The translations under genes and the position numbers were made by a program. Under the pieces are notes generated by a model. The model saw only the letters and a list, made by a program, of their open reading frames with translations. It did not search any database and was not told the origin of the DNA. A DNA stretch of 43,508 nt from a virus. Position 1 is the first letter of the stretch. The number at the start of each line of letters is the position of its first letter. Shown here piece by piece: positions 8,942 through 25,348 of the stretch. The stretch lies in IMG/VR virus record IMGVR_UViG_3300049732_000064, positions 1 to 43,508 of that record; one strand, 5' to 3'.

Positions 8942-8946
8942 AGGCC

Positions 8947-9462
8947 ATGCAAAATCAAAAAACGCCACCGCAAAAAACAGAAATATCTCTGGGCGATCTC
9001 TCGCCAGAGGAGCAGGCATTTGCGGAGGAATTGGCACTTAGCGACAATCAATCACAGGCCTATCGCAATGCCTATGGTGCCGAGGGTTATAGCCCGAATG
9101 CTCTCAAGGTAAGGGCCTGCCGCAAGGCTGCAGAGCCAAAAATCAAAAATTATGTGGCTGCGCTGCGCGGTGCCGGCCTCGCTAACGCAAGGCTAACCCT
9201 GGAGCAACGGATAGCCGATGAGCGCGCATTTGCTCAAAGGGCCGAGGATGCGGGCAACTTCGGGGCCGCGGGTGGGGCATATGACAGGCTTAACAAGCTA
9301 TTGGGCCTCTATGTTGAGCGGCATATGGAGATGGATTCGGACCCGATTTCAGCCCTTGAGCAGATCGCAAAGGAATTTGGACCGGATATTGCGCGGCAGC
9401 TCGCCACCAAAGAGGGCGTTTCATGGGCGCCGCAAGATGAACCACCGCCAAGCCTTAATTGA
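8947..9462 (+). CDS. terS: Terminase small subunit
   Basis: A 171-residue protein. LSPEEQAFAEELALSDNQ, then SQAYRNAYGAEGYSPNALK and ACRKAAEPKIKNYVAAL form the N-terminal helix-turn-helix block of phage small terminases; a helical oligomerisation region (LEQRIADERAFAQRAEDA) and an Asp/Ile-rich end follow. It recognises the packaging site and hands DNA to the large subunit. The partner gene lies about 14.4 kb downstream, unusually far. The ribosome-binding site is weak, with AGG only 3 nt from the ATG. Confidence 0.75.
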   Translation: MQNQKTPPQKTEISLGDLSPEEQAFAEELALSDNQSQAYRNAYGAEGYSPNALKVRACRKAAEPKIKNYVAALRGAGLANARLTLEQRIADERAFAQRAEDAGNFGAAGGAYDRLNKLLGLYVERHMEMDSDPISALEQIAKEFGPDIARQLATKEGVSWAPQDEPPPSLN

Positions 9463-9816: not shown

Positions 9817-9859
9817 TGGTGCTGCGCCTAGCGTGTGTGTGTTGGATTTCAAACGATAG

Positions 9860-10492: not shown

Positions 10493-10680
10493 TGGCTGGT
10501 CCCTTCGCGACTTCGGTGCCAGCCCCCCGGCTGGCTCTGGAGGACGACTTCGTTCTGCTTATTGTCGGCACTGGCGAACCGAACGCCACCCCGGTCGCCC
10601 TTTTGCTCGAACCGTTCATAAACAGCATTTCCCCGCTGCGTATTTGCGATCCATTTGAAGATTGGTGCCGTGGTTCATGA
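10492..10680 (+). CDS. Small protein coupled to the tail fibre gene
   Basis: A 62-residue protein with an Ala/Pro/Leu-rich composition (LALEDDFVLLIVGTGEPNA). It starts on the stop of the previous gene (TGATG) and its stop overlaps the fibre ATG as ATGA. These couplings support translation; no function is recognised. Confidence 0.45.
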   Translation: MAGPFATSVPAPRLALEDDFVLLIVGTGEPNATPVALLLEPFINSISPLRICDPFEDWCRGS

Positions 10681-13265
10681 CCGATAAGACGCTTACAGAA
10701 CTATCGCAGATTCCGGCGAACACGGCCACATCCGTGTCGGATGAGGATTTGCTTTACATTGTTCAGGGTGGCGTCTCCAAGGCGGTTGACGTTGCTACGT
10801 TTAATGGTAGTTCTTTGCTTCTTAATCCCAGCGGGATTGATACAACCGTAATTGATACGGCTGGCACCTATTCTTTTCCGGCCTTTGCGTGGCCTGATAC
10901 ACTATCTGCGCCGGCGGTTTGGCATCTCGACTACACGACTACGAGTGCATCCACCCTGAATGGGGCTGGGTTATCCGTACAAATGACCGCCTCCGCTACG
11001 GCGCCCGCGGCGGGCGCCCCGTCAGCCATTTCGGCTGGCACGCTGGTTATGCGCGATGGGTTGGATGCAGTCGGGATTCTTGGTTATATCAACAATGATT
11101 CGTCTGTTGCCTCTCCTGTCGGGCCGGCTATTTGGGGACTCATTCGCGGGAATATGTCATCCACCGGCCAGGTGGACGGGTTTCGCGCCACGGCAGAAAA
11201 TACCCCAACCGCAACGGCAACTGTCACCATAAGTATTGCAAGCCCGGCTGTAATAACATGGACCGGCCACGGATTATCGGCCGGGGATGCTGTTTTCTTT
11301 TCATCAACAGGATCAGTCCCGACAGGAATCTCGACTTACGAAACTTATTATGTGCTGGCTGCCGGTCTAACCTCGGATACTTTTAGAATCGCCCCCAGGC
11401 CTGCAGGAACCGCGATAGACACATCGGGAACGCAATCTGGAGTTCATTCCGGCTATATAGTCGTAAATCCCAGAGCCGGCCTGCATATAACCAATACAGG
11501 CCAGACATCCTTTGCCACGGGGATACTGATTACATCGGCGGAGGATTATGGCGTGCGTGTTGGCATCGACGCCAACAATGTGTCTCCCACTCATCCATAC
11601 TCGTTCTGGGGCTTTGCTACGCCTACAGCTTGGCCTGCAATGACCGAACTCTGGTATATCGACAACGCCGGGAATGAAACAGTCACAAGCATCACGGCAT
11701 CATCAACCATTGTATCCTCATCCACCATTACAGGCACTTCATTCGCGGCGACCTCAGTGGGGTCAACATTTGGAACCGGTAGCGGTGGCGTGGCGGGATA
11801 TTTTTCTTCAAATTTGGATGGCCAGTTTCCGAGCACGAATAGCGGATTGGCCATAGGGTCAAATAAAAGCGGTGGTTCGTCGGAAGTTGATTTTATCAAC
11901 TCAAATACCGCATCCTTGGTTTCGTTTAATTTCTATCAGCAGACTGGCGCCTCTGCTGTAACATTGCTTGCATCAATACTACCAACATCTGGGATCAAAA
12001 TACCAATCTCTCTCGCCGCGGCAACATCAGGAGACGGCCTTACTCTTACAAACGATACTGCAGCAACAGTAGGCAATCAGAGTTATAGCCCGCGATTGAG
12101 ATTAACCGGGCAGGGCTGGAAAACCGACGCCACGTCAGCATCGCAGACCGTCGATTGGATTATTGAAAACGAGCCGCTGCAGGGCGCGGCGAACCCATCA
12201 ACACGGCTGTATTTTAAAAGCCAGATAAATGGTGGCGGATATAATACAAGGATGTACCTTTATGACAATGTAGCGGGGACACAGTCGACTCTTTCATTAG
12301 ATAATTCCAGCTCATCTCAAATAGAACTCAATGTTGGAGGTAATACTGCTTTATTTCTCTATGCCGACGGCGCGCAACTTCTGTTAGGCTCCCAGTTTAA
12401 TCTGCCACTAAAATTTTATACTAACAACACTGAGAAGGCGAGACTATCAGGATCGGTATTTTCTCCTGGCGCCGATGATGGGACGGCGCTTGGCTCGACC
12501 AGTCTGCAATGGTCAGACGCCTTTATTGCATCTGGCGGTCAGATTGTTTTCAATAATGACGTTAGCCTTACACACAGCACAGACCTACTTACGGTTGCCG
12601 GCGGTAGCATCAAGCTTGCTGCCGGTACGACTGGATTTGCACCGCTGCAATTGCAGGCGGGGACAAACACCACAACTGCAGTTGACGGTGCGGTGGAGTT
12701 TGACGGACAGGCATTGTTTTTCTCGCCGGATGCAAGCGACCGTAGAATTATTCCCACTGTTGCGATTACACGGCTTCATGCCGATAACACATTATCTGAC
12801 AGCACTTCGCTGCAAAAGATTTTCAATGCGTCGGCATCCGGGGCGCTAACGCTTCCGGTTGGGTCTTATATTTTTGAGTGCGTTGTCGGTATTGATACAA
12901 TGTCGGCAACGTCCGGCAATGCTGCACTATCAATAATCGGTGCTGGTGGAGCAACGGTTACCAATACAATTCAGGTTGTTATCGGCATTGATGGAGCGCA
13001 GGCAACGGCCGGTGCGGCCTCTGGTGCATCGTGGTCTGTTACCAACGATGCTCCGGCTGCAAACAATAGTGTTGTTACGGCTACAACCGCTACAGCGATG
13101 GCGGTCATGTGGAAGGGTTCTTTCGAGGTCACTGGTGCGGGGACTATTATTCCGTCCGTTGACCTGATTACCGGTGGGGTCACGCCGGCCGTGAAGATAG
13201 GTTCATACTTCATGTGCTGGAGAATGGGGGCCGCGACAGACGTAACACAAGGAAACTGGAGCTAA
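10677..13265 (+). CDS. Large tail fibre/tailspike-type structural protein
   Basis: An 862-residue protein, very rich in Ser/Thr/Gly/Ala. The first 40 residues (ELSQIPANTATSVSDEDLLY, VVQGG-like IVQGGVSKAVD) form the virion-attachment motif seen at the start of many phage fibres. The middle is repetitive beta-rich sequence, including an alternating TSITASSTIVSSSTITGT stretch around residues 340-360. The last 170 residues look like a beta-sandwich tip (TRLHADNTLSDSTSLQK; LPVGSYIFECVVGID). Likely the receptor-binding fibre. It stands directly before the glycan cassette, so it is a candidate substrate. Confidence 0.7.
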   Translation: MTDKTLTELSQIPANTATSVSDEDLLYIVQGGVSKAVDVATFNGSSLLLNPSGIDTTVIDTAGTYSFPAFAWPDTLSAPAVWHLDYTTTSASTLNGAGLSVQMTASATAPAAGAPSAISAGTLVMRDGLDAVGILGYINNDSSVASPVGPAIWGLIRGNMSSTGQVDGFRATAENTPTATATVTISIASPAVITWTGHGLSAGDAVFFSSTGSVPTGISTYETYYVLAAGLTSDTFRIAPRPAGTAIDTSGTQSGVHSGYIVVNPRAGLHITNTGQTSFATGILITSAEDYGVRVGIDANNVSPTHPYSFWGFATPTAWPAMTELWYIDNAGNETVTSITASSTIVSSSTITGTSFAATSVGSTFGTGSGGVAGYFSSNLDGQFPSTNSGLAIGSNKSGGSSEVDFINSNTASLVSFNFYQQTGASAVTLLASILPTSGIKIPISLAAATSGDGLTLTNDTAATVGNQSYSPRLRLTGQGWKTDATSASQTVDWIIENEPLQGAANPSTRLYFKSQINGGGYNTRMYLYDNVAGTQSTLSLDNSSSSQIELNVGGNTALFLYADGAQLLLGSQFNLPLKFYTNNTEKARLSGSVFSPGADDGTALGSTSLQWSDAFIASGGQIVFNNDVSLTHSTDLLTVAGGSIKLAAGTTGFAPLQLQAGTNTTTAVDGAVEFDGQALFFSPDASDRRIIPTVAITRLHADNTLSDSTSLQKIFNASASGALTLPVGSYIFECVVGIDTMSATSGNAALSIIGAGGATVTNTIQVVIGIDGAQATAGAASGASWSVTNDAPAANNSVVTATTATAMAVMWKGSFEVTGAGTIIPSVDLITGGVTPAVKIGSYFMCWRMGAATDVTQGNWS

Positions 13266-13384
13266 TGACCCCAGAGGATAGACTGAAGATTCTTATTGGC
13301 GATCTGCATTTCCAGATTGCGTTGCTAGCGAGCAAACTGGAGGAAGTACAGAAGAAAGAGGCGGATAAGAAGGCGGACGAATAA
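13265..13384 (+). CDS. 39-residue coiled-coil peptide
   Basis: Encodes MTPEDRLKILIGDLHFQIAL, then a Lys/Glu-rich helix ending KKADKKADE-like. It starts on the last base of the fibre stop codon and ends on the first base of the next ATG. It may be a fibre chaperone or attachment helix; unproven. Confidence 0.5.
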   Translation: MTPEDRLKILIGDLHFQIALLASKLEEVQKKEADKKADE

Positions 13385-13602
13385 TGGAAAGGGGATATTT
13401 CCAATTCGATCTAGATGATGAATTGCCGCAGAAGCTAAAAGCTCTTGAGGACCAGGGCTGGCAATACGACAGGGAAAACAAGTCAACGATCCACTTCAAT
13501 CTTGTCCGCAACAATTCTGCCAACGAACTTGGCGGCCTTGGCCGCCTGGTTATTGATGAAACCAAAGTCCACATCATAAGGAACGGAAAAATCGTCGGAT
13601 GA
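13384..13602 (+). CDS. Small protein, unknown
   Basis: A 72-residue alpha-beta protein (FQFDLDDELPQKLKALEDQG; VIDETKVHIIRNGKIVG). It is linked by a 1-nt overlap upstream and a 4-nt overlap (ATGA) to the glycosyltransferase downstream. No family is recognised. Confidence 0.5.
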   Translation: MERGYFQFDLDDELPQKLKALEDQGWQYDRENKSTIHFNLVRNNSANELGGLGRLVIDETKVHIIRNGKIVG

Positions 13603-14630
13603 TGCGATGGGCAGCGATCTGCCGTCTGGGGGGAATCGGGGATAATCTAATAGCGGCGTCGGTACTAAGACCGTTAAAGCGCCTTGGCTATGCAGTTGAG
13701 GTCATAACTGGCGAGCCATGCCACGTTGTTTATCTCAATAATCCGTTCATCGATAAGCTATCCGTCAAGAAAGAGGGGGACATTCCTTCGGGTGGCGACT
13801 GGCAGAAATGGTTTGCCCAACGCTCGGGTGAATATGATCTGCTAGTAAATCTGAGCCATTCCTGTGAAAAGCTTCACGCGGTCTGGGCCTCAGAAACATC
13901 GTTTTGGTGGCGACCTGAGTATCGCAGAAAACTCTTTGGGGGCAGCTATCTTGAAACGGTCCACGATATTGTAGGCGTTGCTCATGATTTCGGGCCGCTG
14001 TTCTTTCCGACCGATGAGGAACGCGCCCGCGCGCTGAAGCTCAAGAAGAAGATCGGGGAGAGGTACGTCACCTGGGTCATATCTGGCTCCAGAATAGACA
14101 AGATTTATCCTTATGCTGGTATGGCTATTGGCAGGATTATCAAAGAACTGAATATTCCTGTCGTGATGACCGGCAATGGCGGCAAGCAGTTTGAATATGC
14201 CAAACAAATCATGGGGCATATTGAGCGGCAAAACGGCTCTCACGATGGGCTGCATCTTGCACTAACGCCCGAGGGGGCCGACCCCGGTGGTCATCAGGAC
14301 TGGCCCATCAGGAGAAGCCTGGCTCAGTTACTCGCCTCGGACCTTGTTATAACGCCGGACACGGGAGCGGCGTGGGCCTGTGCAATGGAGCCGATGCCAA
14401 AGATCGTGATGGTGTCACACGCGAGCGCGGAAAACATTACGAAGCATTGGGTCAATACGACAACGTTTCATGCGGACCGCAACCGGGTGCCATGCTGGCC
14501 GTGTCATCGGCTGCATAATGATATTTCAACCTGCACCCCTAATAAGGATGGACATGCCTCAGCCTGCATGAGTGATATTTCTGTCGAGACAATACTGGAG
14601 AGAGCCAGTGCGTTCCTGCGGCGAATGTAA
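13599..14630 (+). CDS. GT9-type (heptosyltransferase-like) glycosyltransferase
   Basis: A 343-residue GT-B fold enzyme of normal GT9 length. The N-terminal ICRLGGIGDNLIAASVLRPL is the usual GT9 opening; the C-terminal LLASDLVITPDTGAAWACA is the nucleotide-sugar-binding signature. A late cysteine set (VPCWPCHRL, STCTPN, SACMSD) matches the C-x-x-C...C...C pattern of many GT9 enzymes. These normally add ADP-heptose or similar sugars to lipopolysaccharide cores. Being first of the cassette in the late operon suggests action during virion assembly or on host surface glycan. Confidence 0.8.
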   Translation: MMRWAAICRLGGIGDNLIAASVLRPLKRLGYAVEVITGEPCHVVYLNNPFIDKLSVKKEGDIPSGGDWQKWFAQRSGEYDLLVNLSHSCEKLHAVWASETSFWWRPEYRRKLFGGSYLETVHDIVGVAHDFGPLFFPTDEERARALKLKKKIGERYVTWVISGSRIDKIYPYAGMAIGRIIKELNIPVVMTGNGGKQFEYAKQIMGHIERQNGSHDGLHLALTPEGADPGGHQDWPIRRSLAQLLASDLVITPDTGAAWACAMEPMPKIVMVSHASAENITKHWVNTTTFHADRNRVPCWPCHRLHNDISTCTPNKDGHASACMSDISVETILERASAFLRRM

Positions 14631-15012
14631 TCTTTGCTGTAAGCTGGAGAAGATCGAGAATTTCAAGCCGGCGAGAAAATGGTGCCATCATTGCACCATC
14701 GGCAAGGACGGGTGCGGAATCTACGAGACGCGCCCCTCTGCGTGCAAGAATTTCAACTGCCTCTGGAAAACCAATGAGGAAATGCCGGAGGACATGCGGC
14801 CAGACGTGGTTCGTGCCTATGCAGTGGAACTTAATGGCGGCGTCAAGGTTGTGATGGACCCGGACCATGTGGATTTCAAGAGTCCGGTTGTGGAATGGGT
14901 AAGGGCGCACGGTTATCACGCCCTGGTTCTGACCGGATGGCAACTTAATTTCGTACCGGCCGATGGGGACAAGCCGATACCAGAGAAATTGGTGATTGAT
15001 TGGGTACTCTAA
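14608..15012 (+). CDS. YkgJ-like CxxCxxCC metal-binding protein
   Basis: A 134-residue protein from a GTG with GGAGAG upstream, overlapping the GT9 gene by 23 nt. CGECNLCCKLE at residues 4-14, WCHHC and GCGIYETRPSACKNFNC give eight or more cysteines in the order typical of the YkgJ/UPF0153 family, thought to bind zinc or iron-sulfur. The C-terminal half is alpha-beta and lacks cysteines. No biochemical role is established for the family; its place beside a radical SAM gene makes a redox or metal-supply role possible. Confidence 0.65.
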   Translation: MRSCGECNLCCKLEKIENFKPARKWCHHCTIGKDGCGIYETRPSACKNFNCLWKTNEEMPEDMRPDVVRAYAVELNGGVKVVMDPDHVDFKSPVVEWVRAHGYHALVLTGWQLNFVPADGDKPIPEKLVIDWVL

Positions 15013-15776
15013 AACTCCCAGATGTAACTCTTGTCTGTGTCGAAACGCGCGAACATGAGCTGGCGAGGCTTGCCGTCGAGGATTGCGTCAGGAGGGTTGA
15101 GTTCGGGGACGTTCTGGTTCTTACCGACCGCCCGCTTGATTTCTTCTCGCTGACTTATTTTTGCGATCCGCGCATTATTACTGTACAAGACTGGCCGGAG
15201 AAGGTTGGCTGGTCGCGGTCCTGGTGGTTTGATGTTCCGCCGCTTCTGAAAACCGCCAACACGCTCAATATCCAGTGGGATAGCTGGGTGTGGCAGCCGG
15301 AAATGTGGCGCGATGAGTTTCTGAAGTACGACTATGTTGGTGCGCCGTGGTGGTATGAGGACGGCAAGAACGTAGGAAATGGCGGGTTCTGTCTGCGCTC
15401 GACGGCGCTGAGTAGATACATAGCCGACAGGCGGCAAAAGTATCCGTGTGATACTGCGGTAGATGACGATTTGCTCTGTCGCAAGTATCGCGCGGGCCTA
15501 GAGGGGGCTGGCTTTGTATGGGCGCCGGAGTGGATTGCCCGTGATTTTTCCTATGAGGGCTGCGGTCCTCCGGGTCACCCGAACACGGCCCCGCCAACGA
15601 AGCATTTTGGCTTTCATGCGATGTTCAACTGGTGGTCCGTGCTTGACAGGCCGGGATTGATCGAGCGCACTAAGATTGCGCTGAAATCAAAATACATTAC
15701 CAAGAGTTACATCTTCAGGGCATTTCAAGGACACCCTGAGTTTAATTCTCTTATGAGGGAAATAGAGAATGGCTAA
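15000..15776 (+). CDS. DUF5672-like glycosyltransferase
   Basis: A 258-residue protein. The TTG start is followed by GTLKLPDVTLVCVETREHEL and overlaps the previous stop. Motifs SWVWQPEMWRDEFLKYDYVG, APWWYEDGKNVGNGGFCLRS and KHFGFHAMFNWW are those I associate with DUF5672, a GT-A-like family near sugar transferase clusters. A DDD motif (TAVDDDLLCRKY) may serve metal binding. Substrate unknown. Confidence 0.7.
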   Translation: MGTLKLPDVTLVCVETREHELARLAVEDCVRRVEFGDVLVLTDRPLDFFSLTYFCDPRIITVQDWPEKVGWSRSWWFDVPPLLKTANTLNIQWDSWVWQPEMWRDEFLKYDYVGAPWWYEDGKNVGNGGFCLRSTALSRYIADRRQKYPCDTAVDDDLLCRKYRAGLEGAGFVWAPEWIARDFSYEGCGPPGHPNTAPPTKHFGFHAMFNWWSVLDRPGLIERTKIALKSKYITKSYIFRAFQGHPEFNSLMREIENG

Positions 15777-16164
15777 CGTCTCTGCTTATCTCGCCAAGGC
15801 ATACCTTGACTGGTGCCTTGGCGGGGCCTCCGCTACACAGCCATCAAACAGATGGGTGGGGCTTGCTGTCGGTACACCCACAAGTGTCTCCGGTTCGGAG
15901 ATGGGAACGCTTACGGGCTATTCGCGCCTTACTGCTTTGTTTGGGGCGGCCGCCTCTCCAGCGGGAAGTGCCTCAAATACCGCGGCGATGTCATATGGTC
16001 CATTTTCGTCCAACGGCTCTGTAATCGGCGTCCATGTCTGGGATGGCAGTCCGGTGGCATCCAGCAACATGCTCTGGTATGGTACGCTTCTGACCAACAG
16101 AACCTTTATTCCGGGGGACGTATTGGCCTTCTCGGCGGGTGCGTTGATTATCACTTTGAGCTGA
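15769..16164 (+). CDS. Tail-fibre accessory protein, Gp80-like (copy 1)
   Basis: A 131-residue protein starting NVSAYLAKAYLDWCLGGASA and ending GDVLAFSAGALIITLS. The helix followed by Thr-Pro-rich Ig-like strands and the terminal FAAGALxITL is the hallmark of a small phage fibre family (Gp80-like). It lies between two glycosyltransferase-type genes and is followed by a related gene, so fibre and sugar genes are deliberately mixed. Confidence 0.65.
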   Translation: MANVSAYLAKAYLDWCLGGASATQPSNRWVGLAVGTPTSVSGSEMGTLTGYSRLTALFGAAASPAGSASNTAAMSYGPFSSNGSVIGVHVWDGSPVASSNMLWYGTLLTNRTFIPGDVLAFSAGALIITLS

Positions 16165-16168
16165 AGCA

Positions 16169-16546
16169 ATGCCGCTCGATCCCTATACCGAGAAGGCGCT
16201 TCTCGATTGGGCCTTGGGCGGTGCAACACCCCCATCGGCACCGACGCAAAGATGGGTTCAGTGGGCTACTGCTTCGCCAACATCGGCCTCTGCGTTTGAT
16301 GGTCCGTTCAGCCCTCGCATGACGGTGACGTTTGCGGCTGCGAACAGCCCGCAGATGAGTGCCACCAATTTGAATGCGGTTACGGGAACCGCAACGGCGG
16401 CCGCTACTGCGGTTGGGTGGAATTTATATGATAGGTCTGTCGGCGGAACGCGACTGGCATGGGGAACGTGGTCGGCAAACGTAGGCTGCAAGTCGGCCGA
16501 TAACCCGGCGTTCGCGGCGGGTGCGCTCAAGATCACGTTAAGCTGA
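16169..16546 (+). CDS. Tail-fibre accessory protein, Gp80-like (copy 2)
   Basis: A 125-residue paralogue of the preceding gene. It shares the opening YTEKALLDWALGGATPP and the end AFAAGALKITLS, with a diverged middle (MTVTFAAANSPQMSATNLNA). Tandem duplication followed by divergence is the simplest reading. Likely a second tail-tip or fibre subunit. Confidence 0.65.
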   Translation: MPLDPYTEKALLDWALGGATPPSAPTQRWVQWATASPTSASAFDGPFSPRMTVTFAAANSPQMSATNLNAVTGTATAAATAVGWNLYDRSVGGTRLAWGTWSANVGCKSADNPAFAAGALKITLS

Positions 16547-16547
16547 T

Positions 16548-17207
16548 ATGACGGTACGCGGTGGATCGGGCGGCACTATTTCGGATGGGGGATTGTCTGG
16601 ACGTGGTCTGTTAACTGAGGTTGCCGCAGCGACCCTGCCTGGGGCTGGCGCGCTTTCTGCAAGTGCGCGACTAATCGAAATTAGTGCAGCCACGTTGGCT
16701 GGCTCTGGGAATCTATCTGGTAGTCTTTCTAAACTTGCGTATCAGATAGAGGCCAATCTTTCCGGTTCTGGCGGTCTGTCTGTTTCGGCGCTATTGAATT
16801 TGGCGGCGGCTGCTCAGTTTGCTGGTGTTGGCGGATTATCTGGAGACGCATCGTCTCGCGCCCCGATAATGGCAGAGGCGATATTTGCGGGCAGCGGAAA
16901 TTTGTCGGCAAATCTAAATGGGATTTTGGCAGCACTCGCCAATCTCGATGGCTCCGGCTCTTTCTTGGGGGATTTGATTCTGGCCGCAAGTGCGCCAGTC
17001 CCAGATAATGCAATTGCTACGACTAACTACAGCTTACATCCGGTGAATTGTTTGATGATAGATAAGGGGCCACTGTCAAGTTTGAAGAAGAAAGTTACCG
17101 AGTGGAATATTCCTAAGCCGGATACCAAGGAAAGGGCTACGGCGACAAAGAGCCAGCCGGCTAAATTGGTCAAGCGGCTAACCATTCCGAAGTCATGGTT
17201 GCAATAG
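16548..17207 (+). CDS. Gly/Ser/Ala repeat structural protein
   Basis: A 219-residue protein whose first 145 residues consist of imperfect units of about 25 residues around A-x-L-x-G-[SA]-G-x-L-[SG] (for example AATLAGSGNLSGSL, EANLSGSGGLSVSA, AEAIFAGSGNLSAN). The last 60 residues are basic and Lys/Thr-rich (KKKVTEWNIPKPDTKERATA). It is probably a fibre-type beta-solenoid or collagen-like virion component. Dense Ser beside glycosyltransferase genes makes it a plausible glycan acceptor; that is inference. Confidence 0.5.
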   Translation: MTVRGGSGGTISDGGLSGRGLLTEVAAATLPGAGALSASARLIEISAATLAGSGNLSGSLSKLAYQIEANLSGSGGLSVSALLNLAAAAQFAGVGGLSGDASSRAPIMAEAIFAGSGNLSANLNGILAALANLDGSGSFLGDLILAASAPVPDNAIATTNYSLHPVNCLMIDKGPLSSLKKKVTEWNIPKPDTKERATATKSQPAKLVKRLTIPKSWLQ

Positions 17208-17830
17208 GTCCGGTATTTTCCACGCCATGCTACGTTGGGAATGTCCAGCCGGCCTATCTTAGATCATGTATTACCCTGACAAGCGTTCTTGCGGCAGAGA
17301 AGATAGATCACGACTGGCTAATTAGCTGGAACGAGAGCCTGATAAACCGGGCCAGAAACGAGATGACGGCTTCGTTTCTCAATACGGGCTATTCGCATCA
17401 GTTCTGGATAGATTCCGACATTGAATTTACTCCAGACGACATAGCGAAAGTCTGGAACATGGATGCCGATATTGGTGTTGGCGTCTATGCAATGAAGAAA
17501 CCTGACAAGCAGTATTTTGCCGCATGGAAGGATGGTGCGCTGGTTCACAATCTTGACCAGTACGGTGACGACCCGATTGAGGTTGATCTGGCTGGGACTG
17601 GCTTTATGTGCATCAAGCGAGAGGTGGTAGAAACTCTGGCTAGAAAGGTAGAACACTACGAGGGGCCGAATGGCATGGTGCCCGGCCTCTATATGACCCC
17701 GATCCATAACGGCGGACTTGAGAGCGAGGACTACCATTTCTGTCGTATCGCCAGGGAAGCGGGTTTTAAGGTGATGATGCACCCGATGGTGCGCCTCAAG
17801 CATTGGGGCAACTACCCGTATGGGGCTTAA
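17195..17830 (+). CDS. GT-A fold glycosyltransferase (DSD motif)
   Basis: A 211-residue protein. NESLINRARNEMTASFL precedes FWIDSDIEFTPDDIAK, where D73-S-D75 is a DxD metal/nucleotide-sugar site. GTGFMCIKREVVETL and DYHFCRIAREAGFKV fit the acceptor half of family-2-like or Anp1-like transferases. It overlaps its neighbours by 13 and 11 nt. Sugar and acceptor unknown. Confidence 0.7.
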   Translation: MVAIGPVFSTPCYVGNVQPAYLRSCITLTSVLAAEKIDHDWLISWNESLINRARNEMTASFLNTGYSHQFWIDSDIEFTPDDIAKVWNMDADIGVGVYAMKKPDKQYFAAWKDGALVHNLDQYGDDPIEVDLAGTGFMCIKREVVETLARKVEHYEGPNGMVPGLYMTPIHNGGLESEDYHFCRIAREAGFKVMMHPMVRLKHWGNYPYGA

Positions 17831-18452
17831 AGACCTGATGACGGGTTATGGCGGGTTTTCTTTTCCGCTGCCGAGAATTGCCGGAACATACAGGGGGAAA
17901 AACCTTATCGTCTGCGGTGACGCGCAATGTGTCTGGATTGATCTGGAACTGTTCGGTGCGCGTGACGATAGCCACATGGGCCGGGTCAGGAAGGATGGTT
18001 GGGACATAATGGTGGTGAACAAGCTTGGGGAGACTTTCCCCGGCTGGATCAATCACTGGTACTCCAACCTTCCGCGCGTCATCAATGCTTCGATTGCGGC
18101 GAGGCGCGATGAATATACTCGCGAGTTTTCGCCTTCATGGATTACGCACTCTTGTAACGTGGGCGCGGACCATCGCTGGCCGTGGGGTGGACATGGTACT
18201 TCTGGTCTTGGTGCGGTGCTTGTGGGCGTTGGTCTTGGTTATGACCGCATCGTTCTTTGCGGCCTACCTCTTGATGACGGCCCGCACAACGGCGAACCGC
18301 ACTGGCGCAAGACAAAGTTTGCCTCAAGCGAAGCCGCAGGAAGCAAGATGGACGACAGGGACCACCACTGGAGGCGAGCCATAGACTTGGCGTTCGATAA
18401 GAAAGTTAGGTCAATGTCAGGCCGAACGAAGGAATGGCTTGGTGGCCCGTAA
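17820..18452 (+). CDS. DUF115/sialyltransferase-like sugar-pathway protein
   Basis: A 210-residue protein. KNLIVCGDAQCVWIDLEL near residue 27 and a later HGTSGLGAVLVGVGLGYDRI with VLCGLPLDDGPHNGEPHW suggest a Rossmann-like fold of the DUF115 or GT42 type found in phage and capsule loci. The conserved THS and GxSGL segments would form the donor site. It is flanked by a DxD enzyme and a GT8-like enzyme, so a transferase role is likely. Family certainty is moderate. Confidence 0.5.
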   Translation: MGLKDLMTGYGGFSFPLPRIAGTYRGKNLIVCGDAQCVWIDLELFGARDDSHMGRVRKDGWDIMVVNKLGETFPGWINHWYSNLPRVINASIAARRDEYTREFSPSWITHSCNVGADHRWPWGGHGTSGLGAVLVGVGLGYDRIVLCGLPLDDGPHNGEPHWRKTKFASSEAAGSKMDDRDHHWRRAIDLAFDKKVRSMSGRTKEWLGGP

Positions 18453-19008
18453 GATTGTTCTCGTTCTCAAGCGTTCGCAGGATTACGATTTTGATTATGT
18501 TGACAGGCTGACGGACAGCCTAGACCTGTACTGTTCCAATTTTGAACTGGATGTAATTGAGGAACCTCCCTGGCCGCGTTGGTGGGCCAAGATGGCGATA
18601 TTCGATCCCTCGGTGACGGGGGATTTTCTTTATCTGGATTTAGACACGGTTGTACGAGGCAATATCGATAGCCTGTTTATCGGAAGGCTCACCGTTCTTG
18701 CCGACTTTAATTTGCCAAGGCCAAACTACATGGCGTCCGGTGTCATGTTTGTGCCGGAGTCCGACAGGGACCAGATTTGGCGAAGCTGGATAGCCGATCC
18801 TGAATTTCATATCAGGAAGCATGGCGGGAATGGCGACGGTGGATTTTTGAGCCAGTTCTGGAAACATAGGGCCGCGCGCTGGCAGGAAGAACTGCCCGGT
18901 AAGATCGTGAGTTACAAGGTGCATTGGAAGAAAGCACCACAACCGGACGCAAGCGTAGTCTGTTTTCACGGTAAGCCGCGCCCCAGGGATGTGAACTGGA
19001 TTTTATGA
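18442..19008 (+). CDS. GT8-like glycosyltransferase
   Basis: A 188-residue protein from GTG (a TTG one codon earlier is possible). PPWPRWWAKMAIFDPSVTGD leads to FLYLDLDTVVRGNID, with the DxD metal site. MASGVMFVP, GGNGDGGFLSQF and VCFHGKPRPRDVNW near the end match short GT8-like proteins. It overlaps the radical SAM gene by 4 nt (ATGA). Confidence 0.75.
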   Translation: MARKIVLVLKRSQDYDFDYVDRLTDSLDLYCSNFELDVIEEPPWPRWWAKMAIFDPSVTGDFLYLDLDTVVRGNIDSLFIGRLTVLADFNLPRPNYMASGVMFVPESDRDQIWRSWIADPEFHIRKHGGNGDGGFLSQFWKHRAARWQEELPGKIVSYKVHWKKAPQPDASVVCFHGKPRPRDVNWIL

Positions 19009-20048
19009 ACGTCTTTTCATCGTTGAAGGCCGCATGGCATATCGAGAAGATTGCGGCGCTTCGGGAAGGAAAAGACATTGTACCAACGCATGTGCAGTTG
19101 ATTATTTCTGATTTGTGTAATCAGGATTGTCATTTCTGCGCTTATCGGATGAGTGGCGGCTTTTCCACCGAGAAGTTTGCCGATGAGGAAGGAAACAGGA
19201 ATCCGGTCAGGTTTATTCCGACAGCCAAGGCAATTGAAATCCTTAATGATTGTGCGGAGCTTGGCGTAACGTCAATCGAGTTCACTGGTGGGGGTGAGCC
19301 GACCGTTCACCCAGATCACATTGAGATTATCGGTAAGGCTCAACAGCTTGGGCTACAGACCGGCCTTGTCACCAATGCCGTTAAATTGAGGGATGATGGG
19401 GTTTTTCGCGGGCTTGACTGGCTGCGTGTCAGCCTTGATGCGGGGACGCCGGAAACGTATCGGCGGATCAGGGCCTCGAAGCAATGGCCGAAAGTCATCG
19501 CCAATATCAAATTGGCAGCCACTTTCGAGAAGCCGCTTGTTGGTATTGGATTTGTGGTTACACGCGAGAACTACAGCGAACTGGTGGATGCTTGCAAACT
19601 GGTCAGGGATGCCGGCATCCCATATGTGCGTATCAGTGCGATGTTCTCCGAGTTCGGGGCGCGCTATTATGACGACATTCTTGACAATATACGCGAGCAG
19701 AGGGAACTGGCTGCGGCGCTTGCGACTGATTCTTTTAAGGTGGTTGATTTTTTTGGCAACCGCATTGAGGACTTGGTTTTAGGAAAGCCCGATTATTCTT
19801 TTTGTGGTGAGCAGCAGTTTGTTCTCTACATCGGCGGCGATCAGAAAGTCTACACCTGCTGCACTAACGCCTACACGACGCATGGCCAGATTGGCGATTT
19901 GAGCAGACAGTCGTTCAAGGATTGGATCAAGTCGCACCGCCGTTACGATTTTGATGCCAGCAAATGTCATCATTGTCAGTTTAACGACAAAAATCGTGTC
20001 ATTAATTTCATGCTTGAGAAGGCACCCAAGCATGTTGGCTTTGTATAA
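19005..20048 (+). CDS. Radical SAM enzyme with SPASM-like C-terminal cysteines
   Basis: A 347-residue protein. C38-N-Q-D-C42-H-F-C45 is the CxxxCxxC site for the 4Fe-4S cluster that cleaves S-adenosylmethionine; TGGGEP at 94-99 is the SAM-binding GGE motif. C267, C285-C286 and C321-H-H-C324 with GQIGDL between them resemble the SPASM/twitch region that carries auxiliary clusters in peptide- or sugar-modifying enzymes. All cysteines are intact and the length is normal. Such enzymes are rare in phage late operons. It may modify a sugar or a fibre peptide; the substrate is unknown. Confidence 0.8.
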   Translation: MNVFSSLKAAWHIEKIAALREGKDIVPTHVQLIISDLCNQDCHFCAYRMSGGFSTEKFADEEGNRNPVRFIPTAKAIEILNDCAELGVTSIEFTGGGEPTVHPDHIEIIGKAQQLGLQTGLVTNAVKLRDDGVFRGLDWLRVSLDAGTPETYRRIRASKQWPKVIANIKLAATFEKPLVGIGFVVTRENYSELVDACKLVRDAGIPYVRISAMFSEFGARYYDDILDNIREQRELAAALATDSFKVVDFFGNRIEDLVLGKPDYSFCGEQQFVLYIGGDQKVYTCCTNAYTTHGQIGDLSRQSFKDWIKSHRRYDFDASKCHHCQFNDKNRVINFMLEKAPKHVGFV

Positions 20049-20520
20049 GCACACATTGGTTCCAGACCTTGCGGGGCTTGAGGGTCACATAGGAAGCCCG
20101 AAGCTTATTGTTGATATAGGAGCTGGCATAAGGCCGGCGACATGGGTCAATGCCAGGAGGCATATCTGTGTCGAGCCGTGTCATGTATATGCGGAAATAC
20201 TCCGCGATAATGGTTATGAAGTAATCGAGACAGAGGCAGCTGACGGGATTTACTCGGCGCCATACGCCGACATGATCCTGATGCTTGATGTTATCGAGCA
20301 TATGGAGCGCGAGGACGCCAACAGTGCCATCGGATGTGCCATGATGCGTTCTGACAGGGTTATGATCTACACCCCGAACGGGTTTGTGCCACAGGACGAG
20401 GACAAGTGGGGCCTCGGACAAGTTGAGTGGCAGACGCATCGTTCCGGGTGGACACCGGATGATTTTGACGGCTGGAAGATCATAGAAGGCAAGGAAGGCT
20501 TTGCAGCCATATACGGATGA
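20032..20520 (+). CDS. Class I SAM-dependent methyltransferase-like protein
   Basis: A 162-residue protein starting at an ATG 17 nt inside the radical SAM gene. LIVDIGAGIRPATWV is motif I (GxGxR-like), CVEPCHVYAEIL the acidic ribose-binding strand, and ADMILMLDVIEHMER motif IV. It is short, lacking much of the usual substrate domain. It is probably a sugar or small-molecule O-methyltransferase within the cassette. Confidence 0.65.
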   Translation: MLALYKHTLVPDLAGLEGHIGSPKLIVDIGAGIRPATWVNARRHICVEPCHVYAEILRDNGYEVIETEAADGIYSAPYADMILMLDVIEHMEREDANSAIGCAMMRSDRVMIYTPNGFVPQDEDKWGLGQVEWQTHRSGWTPDDFDGWKIIEGKEGFAAIYG

Positions 20521-21073
20521 GGCGGCGGAGTTCTTTCGGCGGATTACCCCGGAAGAAGCCGAACGCTTCATGGCGGTCAGTACGCATCCGATGCGGGACT
20601 TGGTGGCATCGGTTGTGGCTGGCCGCCAGTTATTAGACCTCGGATGCGGCAAGGGAATCAGGATTGCCGAGTTGTACGACCCCGACAAATATCTTGGGGT
20701 CGATTGCTCAGAGGAACTGGTCAATATCGCCAAACGCGATAATCCGAGACATAAGTTCATTGTCTCCGGCATTCTTGATTTCCTTGCGACACAGGAGAAC
20801 AAGAGTCACGAAGTCGGATTGATGGTTGCGGTTCTTGAACATGTGCCGACACTGGAGACGGCGCAGCGGATTTATGCGGAGGCCCGCAGGGTCGTGAAAG
20901 AACTTCTTGTCGGATGGCATATGGTTCCAAACGGCCGGCAAAACCTGATTATGCGTGTCAAAGCCGATCTGACGGAGCCGATCTGGCAGAACAGATGGAG
21001 GGCCGGTTCGTTTGATGGCGCGGTACAAGTTAAACACCTTGACCATGCCGAACTATGGACCGTGCGTGATTGA
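20501..21073 (+). CDS. Class I SAM-dependent methyltransferase
   Basis: A 190-residue protein with a TTG start overlapping the previous stop by 20 nt. LLDLGCGKGIRIAELY is a full motif I; YLGVDCSEELVNIAK is motif II and VGLMVAVLEHVPTLETA motif IV. It resembles methyltransferases that cap or decorate glycans. It is adjacent to a second methyltransferase-like gene, suggesting two successive or different methylations. Confidence 0.75.
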   Translation: MQPYTDEAAEFFRRITPEEAERFMAVSTHPMRDLVASVVAGRQLLDLGCGKGIRIAELYDPDKYLGVDCSEELVNIAKRDNPRHKFIVSGILDFLATQENKSHEVGLMVAVLEHVPTLETAQRIYAEARRVVKELLVGWHMVPNGRQNLIMRVKADLTEPIWQNRWRAGSFDGAVQVKHLDHAELWTVRD

Positions 21074-21641
21074 GGATTTTGTGCCCTACTCGGACAGTAG
21101 GGCGCTTGTTTCGGCCGGGAAGCATTACCGGGCGCTAAACTTCATTCTGGATGTCGGATACATCTTTGATGAAGGTTTAACGCTATATGAGCCGATTGTA
21201 AGGGAAACCGGATCGTGGCTGCGGTTGGGGCACTATCATAACGGAATGATTGTTTATTCCGAGGGTGGTAGCGGTCCCCATCAGCCATTTATGTTCGGGA
21301 CTGATTGTTACTACACAGACAACGCCCCGCACGCCAAGTTATATAAAAACGGGCGGGTATTGATAGATCATTGGGGCGACGTAGCAGAACTTGGCAATGC
21401 CTTTGTGGATGACCTCGGACTGATTTTCGAGGCGCGCCGGGAATGTCAGGCGGCACCTTCCGGGTGGGCGCTTTACAGCGCAGATCACGATGGGAAGAAA
21501 GTGAAATACCTCTGTAATGGAGCCAATCCAGCCATCTACAACGGCACCGTTTATTACGGCATCTGGGCCGGAACGCAATTCGATATTGCAACAATGGATC
21601 GACGGGATTGCCTACCCGCCGACCCATACATACCAGCTTGA
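21012..21641 (+). CDS. Beta-rich protein of unknown function in glycan cassette
   Basis: A 209-residue protein rich in Tyr, Trp, Gly and Asp (LRLGHYHNGMIVYSEGGSGP, FMFGTDCYYTDNAPHAKLY, AIYNGTVYYGIWAGTQFD). The repeated short strands resemble a beta-propeller or sugar-binding sheet, but I cannot name a family. The TTG at 21012 has GGAGGG 9 nt upstream; ATGs follow at 21015 and 21045. It overlaps the methyltransferase gene by 62 nt. Confidence 0.5.
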   Translation: MMARYKLNTLTMPNYGPCVIEDFVPYSDSRALVSAGKHYRALNFILDVGYIFDEGLTLYEPIVRETGSWLRLGHYHNGMIVYSEGGSGPHQPFMFGTDCYYTDNAPHAKLYKNGRVLIDHWGDVAELGNAFVDDLGLIFEARRECQAAPSGWALYSADHDGKKVKYLCNGANPAIYNGTVYYGIWAGTQFDIATMDRRDCLPADPYIPA

Positions 21642-22671
21642 TGGACTGATACCTACCGGCGATCTTAGGAGGCGCCTGGACGTTTTCAACGAAATTGCTC
21701 CTGGGTTCTTTGACAGTGGCAATTTGCTTGATGTCGGGTGCAACAAGGGCTTCTTTTCCCTGCTGCATAAGGGGGAAGTTACCGGCATTGATACGAATGA
21801 AGAATATGTAAGGCTTTGCCTTACACTCAGGCCGGATGGCACTTTTATCAGGTGTGCTTTTGGCGAGGTCATGTTCGCCAAGCCGTTCGATAAAATCTTT
21901 ATCGGCAACGGCCCGCACTATCCATACGCGCAATGGGGATGGAAATATGTGGACCTTCTGGCGGAACTTAGTAGCGGTTTGGTACTTACGGAGGGATTAT
22001 TTGAAGCAACGAACAGGGACTCGCGGCGCTGCATACCCGACAAGAAGCAGCCGGCCTTCACCAAATCCAAGCGGGACGAAGCGCACGAAAGGCACTTCAT
22101 CAAAGTCGCGGAGACAGCCTCGCCGCTGACCCACCGCACGGTAGTTCTCTGGCGCAGGAAGGGATTGCTACACTTTGCCGACCCGGCTCATTATGCTGGC
22201 TATCTTGTGGAGGTTTATAAAGGTTGTAAGCCATTAGTTGACACTTCGGATGTCGTCATGGAGGTCTGTGTTCGCCACGACCGCGGCGTTCTCGGCCGCC
22301 AGATTATCGACTGTCGGGACTATATCTTTGTTGACCGGGATGAGGCTCGTCCGGGGTTAAATCTTGACGCCGTCAAAGACGAACTGCCAGAGTGCGACGT
22401 TCTTATCTCCACGGCTATCCTGCATCATACGGAGCCTAAATACCTATCGGCGCTGTTTGCCAACATGGCGAGGGCGACCCGCAGGCGCATGATCCTGGTG
22501 GGGCCATCGGCGGATAACGGCGGACCCCTGTTCGGGGACCACAAGTATCATATCAATGTTGAGGAAATGCGTTGTATTTCAGAACAGAACCATTGGAAAC
22601 TTGTGCAATGGTCCCGCTGTGGACTGAGCGAGCCATACGCGGAAGTCAAACTGATATTCGAGCCGCAGTAA
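21586..22671 (+). CDS. Two-domain methyltransferase-like protein
   Basis: A 361-residue protein from TTG at 21586 (an ATG at 21517 would add 23 residues of doubtful character). Domain 1 has LLDVGCNKGFFSLL (motif I) with TGIDTNEEYVRLC, then FIGNGPHYPYAQWGW. Domain 2, from about residue 215, has YIFVDRDEARPGLNLDAVKD and CDVLISTAILHHTEPKYL, resembling motifs II and IV of a second, degenerate methyltransferase that lacks a clear motif I. It may be an active-plus-regulatory fusion. Confidence 0.55.
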   Translation: MQQWIDGIAYPPTHTYQLDGLIPTGDLRRRLDVFNEIAPGFFDSGNLLDVGCNKGFFSLLHKGEVTGIDTNEEYVRLCLTLRPDGTFIRCAFGEVMFAKPFDKIFIGNGPHYPYAQWGWKYVDLLAELSSGLVLTEGLFEATNRDSRRCIPDKKQPAFTKSKRDEAHERHFIKVAETASPLTHRTVVLWRRKGLLHFADPAHYAGYLVEVYKGCKPLVDTSDVVMEVCVRHDRGVLGRQIIDCRDYIFVDRDEARPGLNLDAVKDELPECDVLISTAILHHTEPKYLSALFANMARATRRRMILVGPSADNGGPLFGDHKYHINVEEMRCISEQNHWKLVQWSRCGLSEPYAEVKLIFEPQ

Positions 22672-23285
22672 TTATTCCGATTGGTCCGGGGCATGAGGAA
22701 ATATCACGAACCGCGATAAAGAGCGTTCCTCCTTGGCTGGAATGTATTGTTGTAGATGATACTGGTGGCGCATTGGGGCGCTCGGCCGCCAGAAACCGGG
22801 GCGCGGATTTGACCTCGGCGGAATGGCTGTTCTTTCTGGATGCCGACGACAGGATGTGTTGCGATGTATCATGTATTGATACAAACACCGAAGCTACGTT
22901 CGGCAGCGTTTGTCTCGACTCGAAGGTAAGGGCGCGCAACATCCATCCCTGCGGGTGGCGTGACATTGCGCTTTACGGTTCGCGCGGGACACTGAGCATG
23001 GGGTTCTTTTGCAGGGCCGATGTAGCTCGCCGGCTGAGGTTCGATGAGGCGCTGGATGCCGGCGAGGACTTCGATTTCTACCTGCGGCTATCATCGTTTA
23101 CTAAACGCGATTACCCGTTAGTAAAAGTTGGCTATGATCTTCCATCCGCAACGGGGCCGCGTGGTTATGTAAGTCTTGATTGGGTTTCTGTCTGCAATGG
23201 GATTATTGCCAAGGCTGTCGAGGAAAACCCGCAAAAATATGATCTCCGTGGTGATGCCATACTGGCGAAGGCAGTCAATTCTTAA
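22608..23285 (+). CDS. GT2-type glycosyltransferase
   Basis: A 225-residue protein from an ATG 64 nt inside the previous gene. AAVIIPIGPGHEEISRTAI opens a GT-A fold; ECIVVDDTGG, SAARNRGADLTSAEWLFFLD and the DADD metal motif are classic family 2. GEDFDFYLRLS provides the catalytic-base region (xED). The start is uncertain: no ATG, GTG or TTG lies nearer the conserved core. Probably uses a UDP- or dTDP-sugar. Confidence 0.75.
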   Translation: MVPLWTERAIRGSQTDIRAAVIIPIGPGHEEISRTAIKSVPPWLECIVVDDTGGALGRSAARNRGADLTSAEWLFFLDADDRMCCDVSCIDTNTEATFGSVCLDSKVRARNIHPCGWRDIALYGSRGTLSMGFFCRADVARRLRFDEALDAGEDFDFYLRLSSFTKRDYPLVKVGYDLPSATGPRGYVSLDWVSVCNGIIAKAVEENPQKYDLRGDAILAKAVNS

Positions 23286-23898
23286 GAAGAACCTGAACCG
23301 CTACGCGGATTTCTACGATAACATTGAAGTTATCGTAGTTGACGATGGCTCCCCGGAGCCGGCGCAATCAGATCACAAGTTTGTCCGCATCATCAGGCTT
23401 CCGGCAAAGGATCATGCGCTTAATCCTTGTGTCTGTTTCAATAGGGGCGTTGCGGAGGCGCGCGGCGATACGATTGTTCTGACTAATCCAGAAGTGTTGC
23501 ACAGGGAGCCGATCCTTCAGCGTATGAAGGCTCGACTTGACGGATTAGGCAGGGCCTACGTTGCGGCTGCCTGCTGGGGCGGCTCCTGGTGGTACTGCCA
23601 TTCAACGAGCGAGCCACCGGATATGAAGGTTGGCAGGGCACGTCGGCCGGAGGGGGCGGGATTTCATTTCTGCTCCATGTTGCCGCGCTCGCTCTATGAG
23701 GAAGTCGGTGGTTTCTCGGAAGAATACCGCAACGGGCAGGGCTACGAGGACAACGATTTTCTGTGGAGGTTATGGATGGCCAAGACACAGTTTGAAATCA
23801 TGGATGATTGCGTGACTGAGCATATAGCCTGCCTTCCGTCCAAGTGGCATGGTGGTAGCAATAAAGAGCTTTTTGAGCGCAAATGGGCGAATGTCTGA
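23239..23898 (+). CDS. GT2-type glycosyltransferase
   Basis: A 219-residue protein. MISVVMPYWRRQSILKKNL, VIVVDDGSPEP, CFNRGVAEARGDTIVLTN (with NPE in place of the usual DxD) and GYEDNDFLWRLWM (the ED(N)D base) place it in GT2, close to galactosyltransferase-type C-terminal domains. It overlaps the large terminase start by 8 nt, closing the cassette. Confidence 0.75.
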   Translation: MISVVMPYWRRQSILKKNLNRYADFYDNIEVIVVDDGSPEPAQSDHKFVRIIRLPAKDHALNPCVCFNRGVAEARGDTIVLTNPEVLHREPILQRMKARLDGLGRAYVAAACWGGSWWYCHSTSEPPDMKVGRARRPEGAGFHFCSMLPRSLYEEVGGFSEEYRNGQGYEDNDFLWRLWMAKTQFEIMDDCVTEHIACLPSKWHGGSNKELFERKWANV

Positions 23899-25348
23899 CG
23901 CAGCAAGGCTTGCCTCACTAACTGACATTTATCGGCGCGGTATTAGGGAAAATCGTCTGGCTGTCTATCAGCCATATCCGTGGCAACTAGAATTTCACAA
24001 CGCCGGGAAAGATAACCCCGAACGGATGTTGATGGCGGCCAACCGCGTCGGCAAGACGCGCTGTGCGGCAGCCGAGTCGGCCTATCATCTGACGGGAGAC
24101 TATCCCGATTGGTGGAATGGTAAGCGTTTCGATTATCCAGTGTTGGTTTGGTCTGGTTCTCCGACGAATGAAACATCGCGGGATATTGTACAGGCAGAAT
24201 TGATTGGCGATCTGGGGGCCGGCTTAGGAACAGGCATGGTCCCGCGCGCGAAGATCATCGGCCAGCCCCAGACGCGGCAGGCTGGCGTCAAAAACGTAGT
24301 TGAGTCGTTCAAGGTCAAGCACAGGTCCGGCGGCGTTTCTGTCTGCACTCTGAAAACCTACGAGATGGGTTGGCAGAAATGGCAGGGCACGGCTCCGCAT
24401 GTGGTGTGGCTGGACGAAGAACCGGATGATTATAAGATTTTCTCTGAGGCGCAAACTCGAACGATTACATCGCATGGTGTGATTCTTGTGACGTTTACGC
24501 CTCTGCTCGGTATGACTGACTTAGTAGATCATTTTATGTCACCACCGAAGGAGATTGCTCATAGGATTTTTGTTAAGGGGGCCACCTGGGACGACGCACC
24601 GCATATGAGTGACGTTGATAAAAAGGAGAGGGCAGCATCTTATCGCACTCATGAGGTCGCGGCCCGTACTCAGGGCATTCCCATGATGGGCAGGGGTGCC
24701 ATCTTTCCAATTTCTGATGATCGCATTTCTTGTGACCCGTTTCCGATCCCGGATCATTTTGCAAGGATTAAGGGCTGCGATTTTGGTTATGAACATGCAG
24801 CGGCCGGCGCCGAAATTGCTTACGACCGCGATCAGGATATTGTTTACGTTATTGATTGCTACAAAGAGAAAGAACAATTAGCCCCCTATCATGCCGCTTG
24901 GTTCAACAAGTCCAACAGGTGGATTCCTGTTGCATGGCCGCATGACGGATTGAACACGGAAAAGAGCGGCGGCAGCAAGATCAAGGATGCTTATATCGAA
25001 TATGGCGTTAATATGCTCGGCAAGTCGGCTCGCTACGCAAAAGCCAAGGGCGAGGACAGGGAAAAGGGCGGCGGACAGGATCAGTGGCCGATAATCGACA
25101 AAATTCGCGACAGAATGAGAACTGGAAAGTTCAAAGTATTCTCAAATTTATCTGAATGGTTTGAGGAAAAGCGTTCTTACCACACAAAAGAAACGAATGA
25201 CGGCGGATCAAAGATTGTCGCTAGGCGTGACGATATTCTTAAGGCAACATTCTACGCGGTGATGATGCTGAGATATGCGGTTACGCAGGGCGAAATAACA
25301 CCACAACGCAGCGTGGCCTCTGCTCCGATAGTGACAAGCAGGTTATGA
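23891..25348 (+). CDS. terL: Terminase large subunit
   Basis: A 485-residue packaging ATPase/nuclease from ATG 23891. MAANRVGKT (residues 48-56) is the Walker A, VVWLDEE (171-177) the Walker B with catalytic Glu, and ILVTFTPLLG a coupling motif. The C-terminal nuclease begins at GCDFGYEHAAAG (D297) and ends near RRDDILKATFYAVMML. It pumps DNA into the prohead and cuts concatemers. Its start sits inside the last glycosyltransferase gene and its end overlaps the next gene by 4 nt. Confidence 0.9.
   Translation: MSDAARLASLTDIYRRGIRENRLAVYQPYPWQLEFHNAGKDNPERMLMAANRVGKTRCAAAESAYHLTGDYPDWWNGKRFDYPVLVWSGSPTNETSRDIVQAELIGDLGAGLGTGMVPRAKIIGQPQTRQAGVKNVVESFKVKHRSGGVSVCTLKTYEMGWQKWQGTAPHVVWLDEEPDDYKIFSEAQTRTITSHGVILVTFTPLLGMTDLVDHFMSPPKEIAHRIFVKGATWDDAPHMSDVDKKERAASYRTHEVAARTQGIPMMGRGAIFPISDDRISCDPFPIPDHFARIKGCDFGYEHAAAGAEIAYDRDQDIVYVIDCYKEKEQLAPYHAAWFNKSNRWIPVAWPHDGLNTEKSGGSKIKDAYIEYGVNMLGKSARYAKAKGEDREKGGGQDQWPIIDKIRDRMRTGKFKVFSNLSEWFEEKRSYHTKETNDGGSKIVARRDDILKATFYAVMMLRYAVTQGEITPQRSVASAPIVTSRL

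Follow-up and report, generated by a model that had tools for sequence, protein, structure and literature searches.

The window analysed here is the complete IMG/VR virus record IMGVR_UViG_3300049732_000064, a linear DNA of 43,508 nucleotides from a podophage whose large terminase (TerL) is approximately 42% identical to those of Vibrio, Rhizobium and groundwater podophages and is followed by the portal, capsid and ejection genes. The interval between the gene of the small terminase (TerS), which ends at 9462, and that of TerL, which starts at 23891, is best explained as the region in which a P22/GP4-like podophage encodes its tail fibres, with two mobile glycan modules inside. Module A (13599-17207) comprises a GT9 glycosyltransferase, a YkgJ-like protein, a DUF5672 protein, two copies of gp80 (GP4 fibre-I family) and a fibre with GxGxLS repeats (fibC); module B (17195-23898) comprises small glycosyltransferases, methyltransferases and a radical S-adenosylmethionine (SAM) enzyme (rSAM). 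An earlier sequence-only reading had described a cassette of glycan and SAM enzymes here, and that block is confirmed at the position given, with all of the named genes present. It also forms the continuous chain of overlapping genes that had been described: from 13265 to TerL all genes are on the + strand, with junctions that range from a 125 b overlap to a 4 b gap, although the size of some overlaps varies with the choice of start. The features are listed in Table 1, in which relatives are designated by L numbers.

Enzymes and fibre proteins of module A

The GT9 protein of the window has no direct profile match, and PF01075 is matched by 2 of 11 close homologues. Its AlphaFold2 model (predicted local distance difference test, pLDDT, 81) is matched by Foldseek to a Veillonella GT9 (3tov, 4e-12), WaaF (1psw, 6e-10), TibC (4rap, 1.5e-6) and also WaaC. 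The GT9 assignment in the sequence-only reading is upheld by the PF01075 matches of homologues and by a predicted fold like that of GT9 structures. The GGxGD catalytic motif begins at residue 10, and the C-terminal residues C298, C301, C311 and C322 are invariant in 11 of 11 sequences of the phage clade. The DUF5672 protein gives an AlphaFold2 model with a pLDDT of 90, the best structure matches of which are glycogenin and UGGT, and its prediction as a GT-A glycosyltransferase is of high confidence; neither this protein nor GT9 has a sequence-level match among solved structures. The YkgJ-like protein falls below the Pfam cut-off, but its PHROG match and eight cysteines that are invariant across 6 homologues bear out its naming.

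The three fibre-type genes reported among the enzymes are the two PF23140 (gp80) copies and the repeat protein. The gp80 family was originally described as a virion fibre, and repeat fibres that resemble fibC follow gp80 in relatives. Five GxGxLS motifs are present in fibC, compared with 0.07 expected from shuffling. The serines of these motifs or loops of gp80 may be the acceptors of a glycan; the Ser/Thr content of enzyme-linked gp80 is not clearly different from that of unlinked gp80.

Two further arrangements were observed. In L217, L218 and L222, dehydrogenase-, epimerase- and C-methyltransferase-like proteins (named by eye) are encoded between GT9 and DUF5672 at 5604-8534, possibly as a nucleoside diphosphate (NDP)-sugar pathway within module A. 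In L237, a Magnetococcales metagenome-assembled genome (MAG), the gene at 9494-11047 (- strand) encodes a cellular protein in which a methyltransferase-like domain is fused to a phage-clade GT9 (28% identity); the four cysteines are present here too, and phage-like genes are found a few kb away.

Table 1. Terminase genes of the window and the features between them
Feature	Coordinates	Strand	Basis
Small terminase, left border	8947..9462	+	phrog_51 1.6e-8; homologues in L009, L040, L129, L130, L132
Fibre-like open reading frame (ORF), 867 aa, upstream of enzymes	10662..13265	+	no Pfam family; weak phrog_584 0.005; fibre by look and position
GT9 glycosyltransferase (GT-B)	13602..14630	+	PF01075 matches of homologues; predicted fold; gp80 downstream in 50/51 clusters
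YkgJ-like CxxCxxCC protein, variable module A member	14572..15012	+	phrog_9155 2e-12; Pfam below cut-off
DUF5672 protein	15000..15776	+	PF18922 4e-13; 49.7 bits (curated cut-off 24.4)
gp80a, GP4 fibre-I family virion protein, proposed acceptor/scaffold	15769..16164	+	PF23140 4e-23; 82 bits (cut-off 27)
gp80b, second GP4 fibre-I protein	16169..16546	+	PF23140 2e-13; 51 bits (cut-off 27)
fibC, GxGxLS-repeat fibre, proposed acceptor	16548..17207	+	five repeats, period ~20 aa
GTdxd, GT-A glycosyltransferase	17195..17830	+	phrog_1574 1e-34; STIV A197 profile match 1e-4
Uncharacterised partner, DUF115-like by look only	17820..18452	+	54-61% identical in L009, L029, L130; no Pfam match
GT8-type glycosyltransferase	18439..19008	+	phrog_1962 1e-41; DLD invariant
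rSAM, radical SAM enzyme with SPASM-like C-terminal cysteines	19005..20048	+	Radical_SAM PF04055 8e-19, above cut-off
MT1, class I methyltransferase-type	20032..20520	+	own family only, no Pfam/PHROG match; start picked from homologues
MT2, class I methyltransferase	20501..21073	+	Methyltransf_11 1.4e-9
Orphan, 209 aa	21012..21641	+	homologue only in near-identical contig L002; no profile match; beta-propeller-like by eye
MT3, methyltransferase	21517..22671	+	Methyltransf_25 6e-6; homologues adjoin rSAM in L108, L109
GT2a glycosyltransferase	22572..23285	+	Glyco_tranf_2_2 9e-7; also in L009, L024, L108
GT2b glycosyltransferase	23176..23898	+	Glycos_transf_2 3e-10; chondroitin synthase profile match
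Large terminase, right border	23891..25348	+	Terminase_6N 7e-21, 6C 2e-10; 42% to Vibrio podophages

Linkage and co-divergence of GT9 and gp80

Close relatives of gp80a (65-76% identical) are present at 16 viral loci, with DUF5672 directly upstream in 16/16 and GT9 upstream in 13/13 of those with enough upstream DNA. The flanks of module A belong to several backbones without common genes, namely HK97-type siphophages, a podophage group, the window, and a contig of contractile-tail type with baseplate-J-like genes (both by eye). The converse scan from GT9 yields 63 clusters at 95% identity, 51 of which have at least 5 kb of downstream DNA, and a same-strand gp80-family gene lies downstream in 50 of these 51. 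DUF5672 is found in just 18 of the 51, which indicates that it is an addition to the GT9-gp80 pair.

Additionally, the GT9 and gp80 distances are correlated over 55 clusters (r=0.68), and this still holds (r=0.62; p=0.001 by permutation) over the 1354 contig pairs whose flanks have no gene in common. Both values are from Mantel tests, which do not preserve the shape of the trees or the whole of the recombination. Not every cluster stands on a backbone of its own, because one single-linkage component of flanking genes contains 38 of the 55, and the no-shared-gene test handles backbone sharing pairwise only. Conversely, gp80 occurs without GT9 in Roseobacter phage CRP-4 and in four alphaproteobacterial prophages; in these prophages the search reached approximately 8 kb in both directions, or as far as the contig extended. 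A search for the host in 385 genomes from the class of a Rhodospirillaceae MAG yielded only remote gp80 genes, unaccompanied by the enzymes. GT9 is hardly ever found without gp80, yet gp80 exists without GT9; this pattern is predicted by an enzyme-substrate pair, and the data fit an enzyme and its substrate.

Module B and the separation of the terminase genes

Profile matches confirm the identity proposed for DUF5672 and, in module B, for GTdxd, the GT8-type enzyme, rSAM, GT2a and GT2b. Of the three methyltransferases proposed, MT2 and MT3 are supported by profile, whereas MT1 is placed by its own family only. The DUF115-like label of the GTdxd neighbour is not confirmed, as no profile match is obtained and only one remote aligned protein (17% identity) matches MptE-like. 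The GT8-type profile matches include the Skp1 galactosyltransferase (Gal-Skp1 GT) and glycogenin, and homologues of GTdxd are found upstream of TerL in L009, L029, L030, L033, L040, L130 and L132.

In rSAM, the CxxxCxxC motif is invariant in 16 members; the SPASM match is weak (18.6 bits, under the cut-off of 21.5), and C267, C285, C286, C321 and C324 are invariant. The nearest solved structure is that of BlsE, a sugar-nucleotide decarboxylase. Viral relatives number approximately 20 at 40-73% identity, plus one near-identical contig, whereas 84,980 species of bacteria and archaea yield six relatives at 37% identity or more, one of which (L109) is in a prophage-like late operon. This locus, from a Zixiibacteriota MAG, holds GT8, two rSAM, MT3-type and GT2b-type enzymes at 8689-15946, between capsid and head-tail genes. 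The core order MT1-rSAM-GT2b recurs in unrelated phages, with MT1 commonly before rSAM (the family is beside rSAM in L009-L013, L016, L017, L023-L025 and L027) and GT2b, a family of 23 ORFs across the loci compared, commonly after it. The module B set is situated between head and tail genes in the siphophages L010, L013 and L017, and rSAM follows the portal gene in L015, another podophage. The proposal of one pathway that is gained or lost as a unit is ruled out by the differing distributions of the two halves: the block consists of two modules, each with a history of its own, and of additions peculiar to the lineage.

Distant cellular homologues of rSAM are found in glycan loci, by PseB/NeuB-type genes in L110, by GT2-/GT4-type genes in L112, and in O-antigen-type clusters with DUF5672-type proteins and an adjacent methyltransferase in L115 and L116; the genes of these loci beyond the profile set were named by eye. 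Such relatives, in polysaccharide clusters with flippases, are expected under the main rival explanation, in which the enzymes remodel a host envelope glycan, either the lipopolysaccharide (LPS) core or the O-antigen, and thereby block the re-adsorption of progeny to debris or the entry of competing phages, fibre and receptor modification forming one host-range unit. The LPS heptosyltransferases in the GT9 family and the matches of the model to WaaF and WaaC are likewise in its favour, and the co-transfer of a fibre with a receptor modification would be equally expected. However, the cassette lacks any flippase, Gtr-type partner or protein that is convincingly transmembrane (values just above 1.6 are obtained for gp80a and for an over-extended start of MT1), late-operon genes would be silent in the lysogen, and the tightest pairing, which holds in phages that are unrelated, ties GT9 to one particular small fibre protein. 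We therefore regard envelope modification as unlikely, though it deserves serious weight.

The distance between TerS and TerL in relatives with both genes is approximately 5 kb in L040, 9 kb in L009, 10 kb in L129 and L132, and 14 kb in L130; these contigs are fragments, and the structural genes of several were named by eye. The gaps contain fibre genes mixed with glycan enzymes that differ from one relative to the next; among these are FkbM-type or other methyltransferases and sulfotransferase-like proteins (by eye, no Pfam match). In CRP-4 a gp80-family gene and a fibre gene lie beside the terminase with no annotated glycan enzymes. Because relatives hold fibres with changing enzymes, and CRP-4 fibres without annotated ones, it is the fibre region that separates the terminase genes in this lineage, and the enzymes have invaded it. 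The sequence-only reading was thus correct that the terminase genes lie apart, but not that the enzymes split them; the separation is a lineage trait, present in every relative that holds both genes.

The strong differences in gene content beside TerL, together with the placement of comparable enzymes after the capsid gene in MW202801 and MW202512, would also be expected if the late operon and fibre region were a tolerant, recombination-prone slot for hitchhiking cargo functionally unlinked to the fibres. The 50/51 pairing of GT9 with gp80, their co-divergence without a shared backbone, and the conserved MT1-rSAM-GT2b order in unrelated phages make this explanation improbable.

Two genes of the interval were unnamed in the earlier enzyme list, namely the 867-aa fibre-like ORF and the orphan at 21012-21641. 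TerL is taken to start at ATG 23891 because homology starts at residue 15 of the frame that opens at ATG 23849. The gene order suggests that the block is co-transcribed with the late genes; promoter-like sites are no commoner than chance, and terminator-like sites are above chance (27 vs 16.5). GC skew is clearly positive (0.10-0.15) over 13000-26000, which covers the block and the terminase; it is close to zero immediately before this stretch and mostly lower after it. Signs of a temperate phage include an integrase N-terminus-like fragment at the left edge (3-473, -) and an excisionase-like ORF (424-633, -), both by eye and without a Pfam match, and an HTH_3 repressor-type gene (5029-5376, -). 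In contig L002 all cassette proteins are identical to those of the window, and the capsid protein, at the contig end, is only 94% identical, possibly owing to recent recombination or an assembly join.

A Mom-like DNA modification protein is encoded apart from the glycan block, at 647-1351 on the - strand (PF25680 3e-18, phrog_1384 6e-27). This gene would suit glycosyltransferases that decorate hypermodified phage DNA, as would the DNA-modifying viral glycosyltransferases of a Cell Reports 2024 paper, as cited in PMC12619734. However, the gene is on the opposite strand and 12 kb off, the enzymes sit among fibre genes, and a Tet/JBP-type base oxidase is found in 0/18 records (window and relatives) by a search without a working positive control, which leaves DNA decoration very improbable.

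Proposed glycosylation of tail fibres and comparison with known systems

The best explanation, which we consider probable, is the late cytoplasmic glycosylation of tail-fibre proteins; its activity, sugar and acceptor are inferred. GT9 would add the first sugar to the fibre proteins encoded just downstream (the gp80 copies and/or the GxGxLS-repeat fibre), much as heptosyltransferases of the TibC type act on the adhesin whose gene adjoins theirs, and DUF5672 may extend it. Variable partners, such as the YkgJ-like protein here and FkbM-type methyltransferases or NDP-sugar enzymes elsewhere, could tune the glycan, and the GT-A, GT8, GT2, methyltransferase and rSAM enzymes of module B may build and cap a longer glycan, whether on that fibre or on a different one. 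These reactions would take place in the cytoplasm ahead of assembly, would draw on nucleotide sugars of the host, and may affect adsorption or recognition by hosts or grazers. This account is favoured because of the GT9-gp80 pairing, the co-divergence, the cases of gp80 without GT9 and the several unrelated backbones, and additionally because unrelated phages carry module B flanked by head and tail genes, distant cellular rSAM homologues are in glycan loci, NDP-sugar-type enzymes lie inside the L217 module A, and convincing transmembrane segments are absent from the cassette enzymes. The preference of the sequence-only reading for a late-operon glycan pathway that targets the virion over the host surface is supported by the enzymes inside head and tail clusters, the lack of convincing transmembrane segments and the GT9-gp80 pairing.

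Several observations weigh against fibre glycosylation. GT9 enzymes classically build the LPS core, which is compatible with a host-surface target, as is the presence of cellular rSAM relatives in surface-polysaccharide loci. The GT9-gp80 linkage could instead reflect the exchange of a host-range region, and DUF5672 and gp80a distances show no clear co-divergence (r=0.37). The window GT9 is without the N-terminal barrel of TibC, its motif starting at residue 10. Four-cysteine C-terminal ends with varied spacing are also present in several ordinary bacterial GT9s, and for this reason the motif cannot decide between a protein and an LPS acceptor. As proof of a TibC-type protein heptosyltransferase, the four-cysteine finger is weakened by the same similarity.

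It is also conceivable, though we put it forward tentatively, that a mobile fibre-glycosylation system, complete in itself, is common to tailed phages, and that in it GT9 moves and diverges together with its own fibre substrate across podophages, siphophages and probably myophages, with exchangeable modules, one of them around an almost phage-only rSAM. The fibre sugar would then be a means of tuning which hosts are recognised or how the lectins of hosts or grazers are escaped. If true, the glycosyltransferase-fibre pair of dozens of environmental phages, with its predicted adjacent acceptor, is a directly testable enzyme-substrate system, and it would explain the frequent glycosyltransferase, methyltransferase and rSAM genes in late operons of environmental phages, which are usually filed as auxiliary metabolism. 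A likely function, that of a GT-A glycosyltransferase, is additionally offered for DUF5672. To our knowledge, most known cases of phage virion glycosylation come from mycobacteriophages and involve few enzymes; the literature searched contains no mention of DUF5672 in phages, fibre-linked heptosyltransferases or GT9-gp80-type pairing.

The prophage gtrABC seroconversion cassettes also encode glycosyltransferases, which there alter a surface glycan, and need membrane GtrA/GtrB-type proteins, whereas no convincing transmembrane segment or membrane protein of this type is found among the window cassette enzymes. The fibre region of Cobaviruses (Zobellviridae) such as CRP-4 resembles the window in that gp80-family and fibre genes adjoin TerL, but it has no annotated glycan enzymes between them. 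As in phage virion glycosylation systems, the glycosyltransferase genes of the window are within or beside structural genes. In mycobacteriophages, the glycans are on subunits of the capsid and of the tail tube (Freeman et al. 2023, as cited in PMC12619734), and there, as proposed here, phage-encoded glycosyltransferases would decorate virion proteins; the set in the window is larger, multi-enzyme, includes rSAM and methyltransferases, and lies among tail-fibre genes. The capsid protein of the archaeal virus STIV is glycosylated, and its A197 is a viral GT-A glycosyltransferase (PMC10551542) that the GTdxd family matches by profile, although STIV has a single glycosyltransferase and a putative acceptor. 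GT9 can also be compared with the bacterial autotransporter heptosyltransferases (BAHT; TibC/AAH). TibC, a heptosyltransferase that acts on proteins, has a four-cysteine finger and approximately 97 residues ahead of the catalytic GGxGD motif, and its gene is often followed by that of an autotransporter substrate (PMC4358343). The window GT9 has no sequence-level match to TibC, and its partner is the phage fibre gp80 rather than an autotransporter, but it shares the catalytic GT-B fold of GT9, its four C-terminal cysteines recall those of TibC without being diagnostic, and its gene is likewise followed by that of a surface protein, with a repeat-rich protein nearby.

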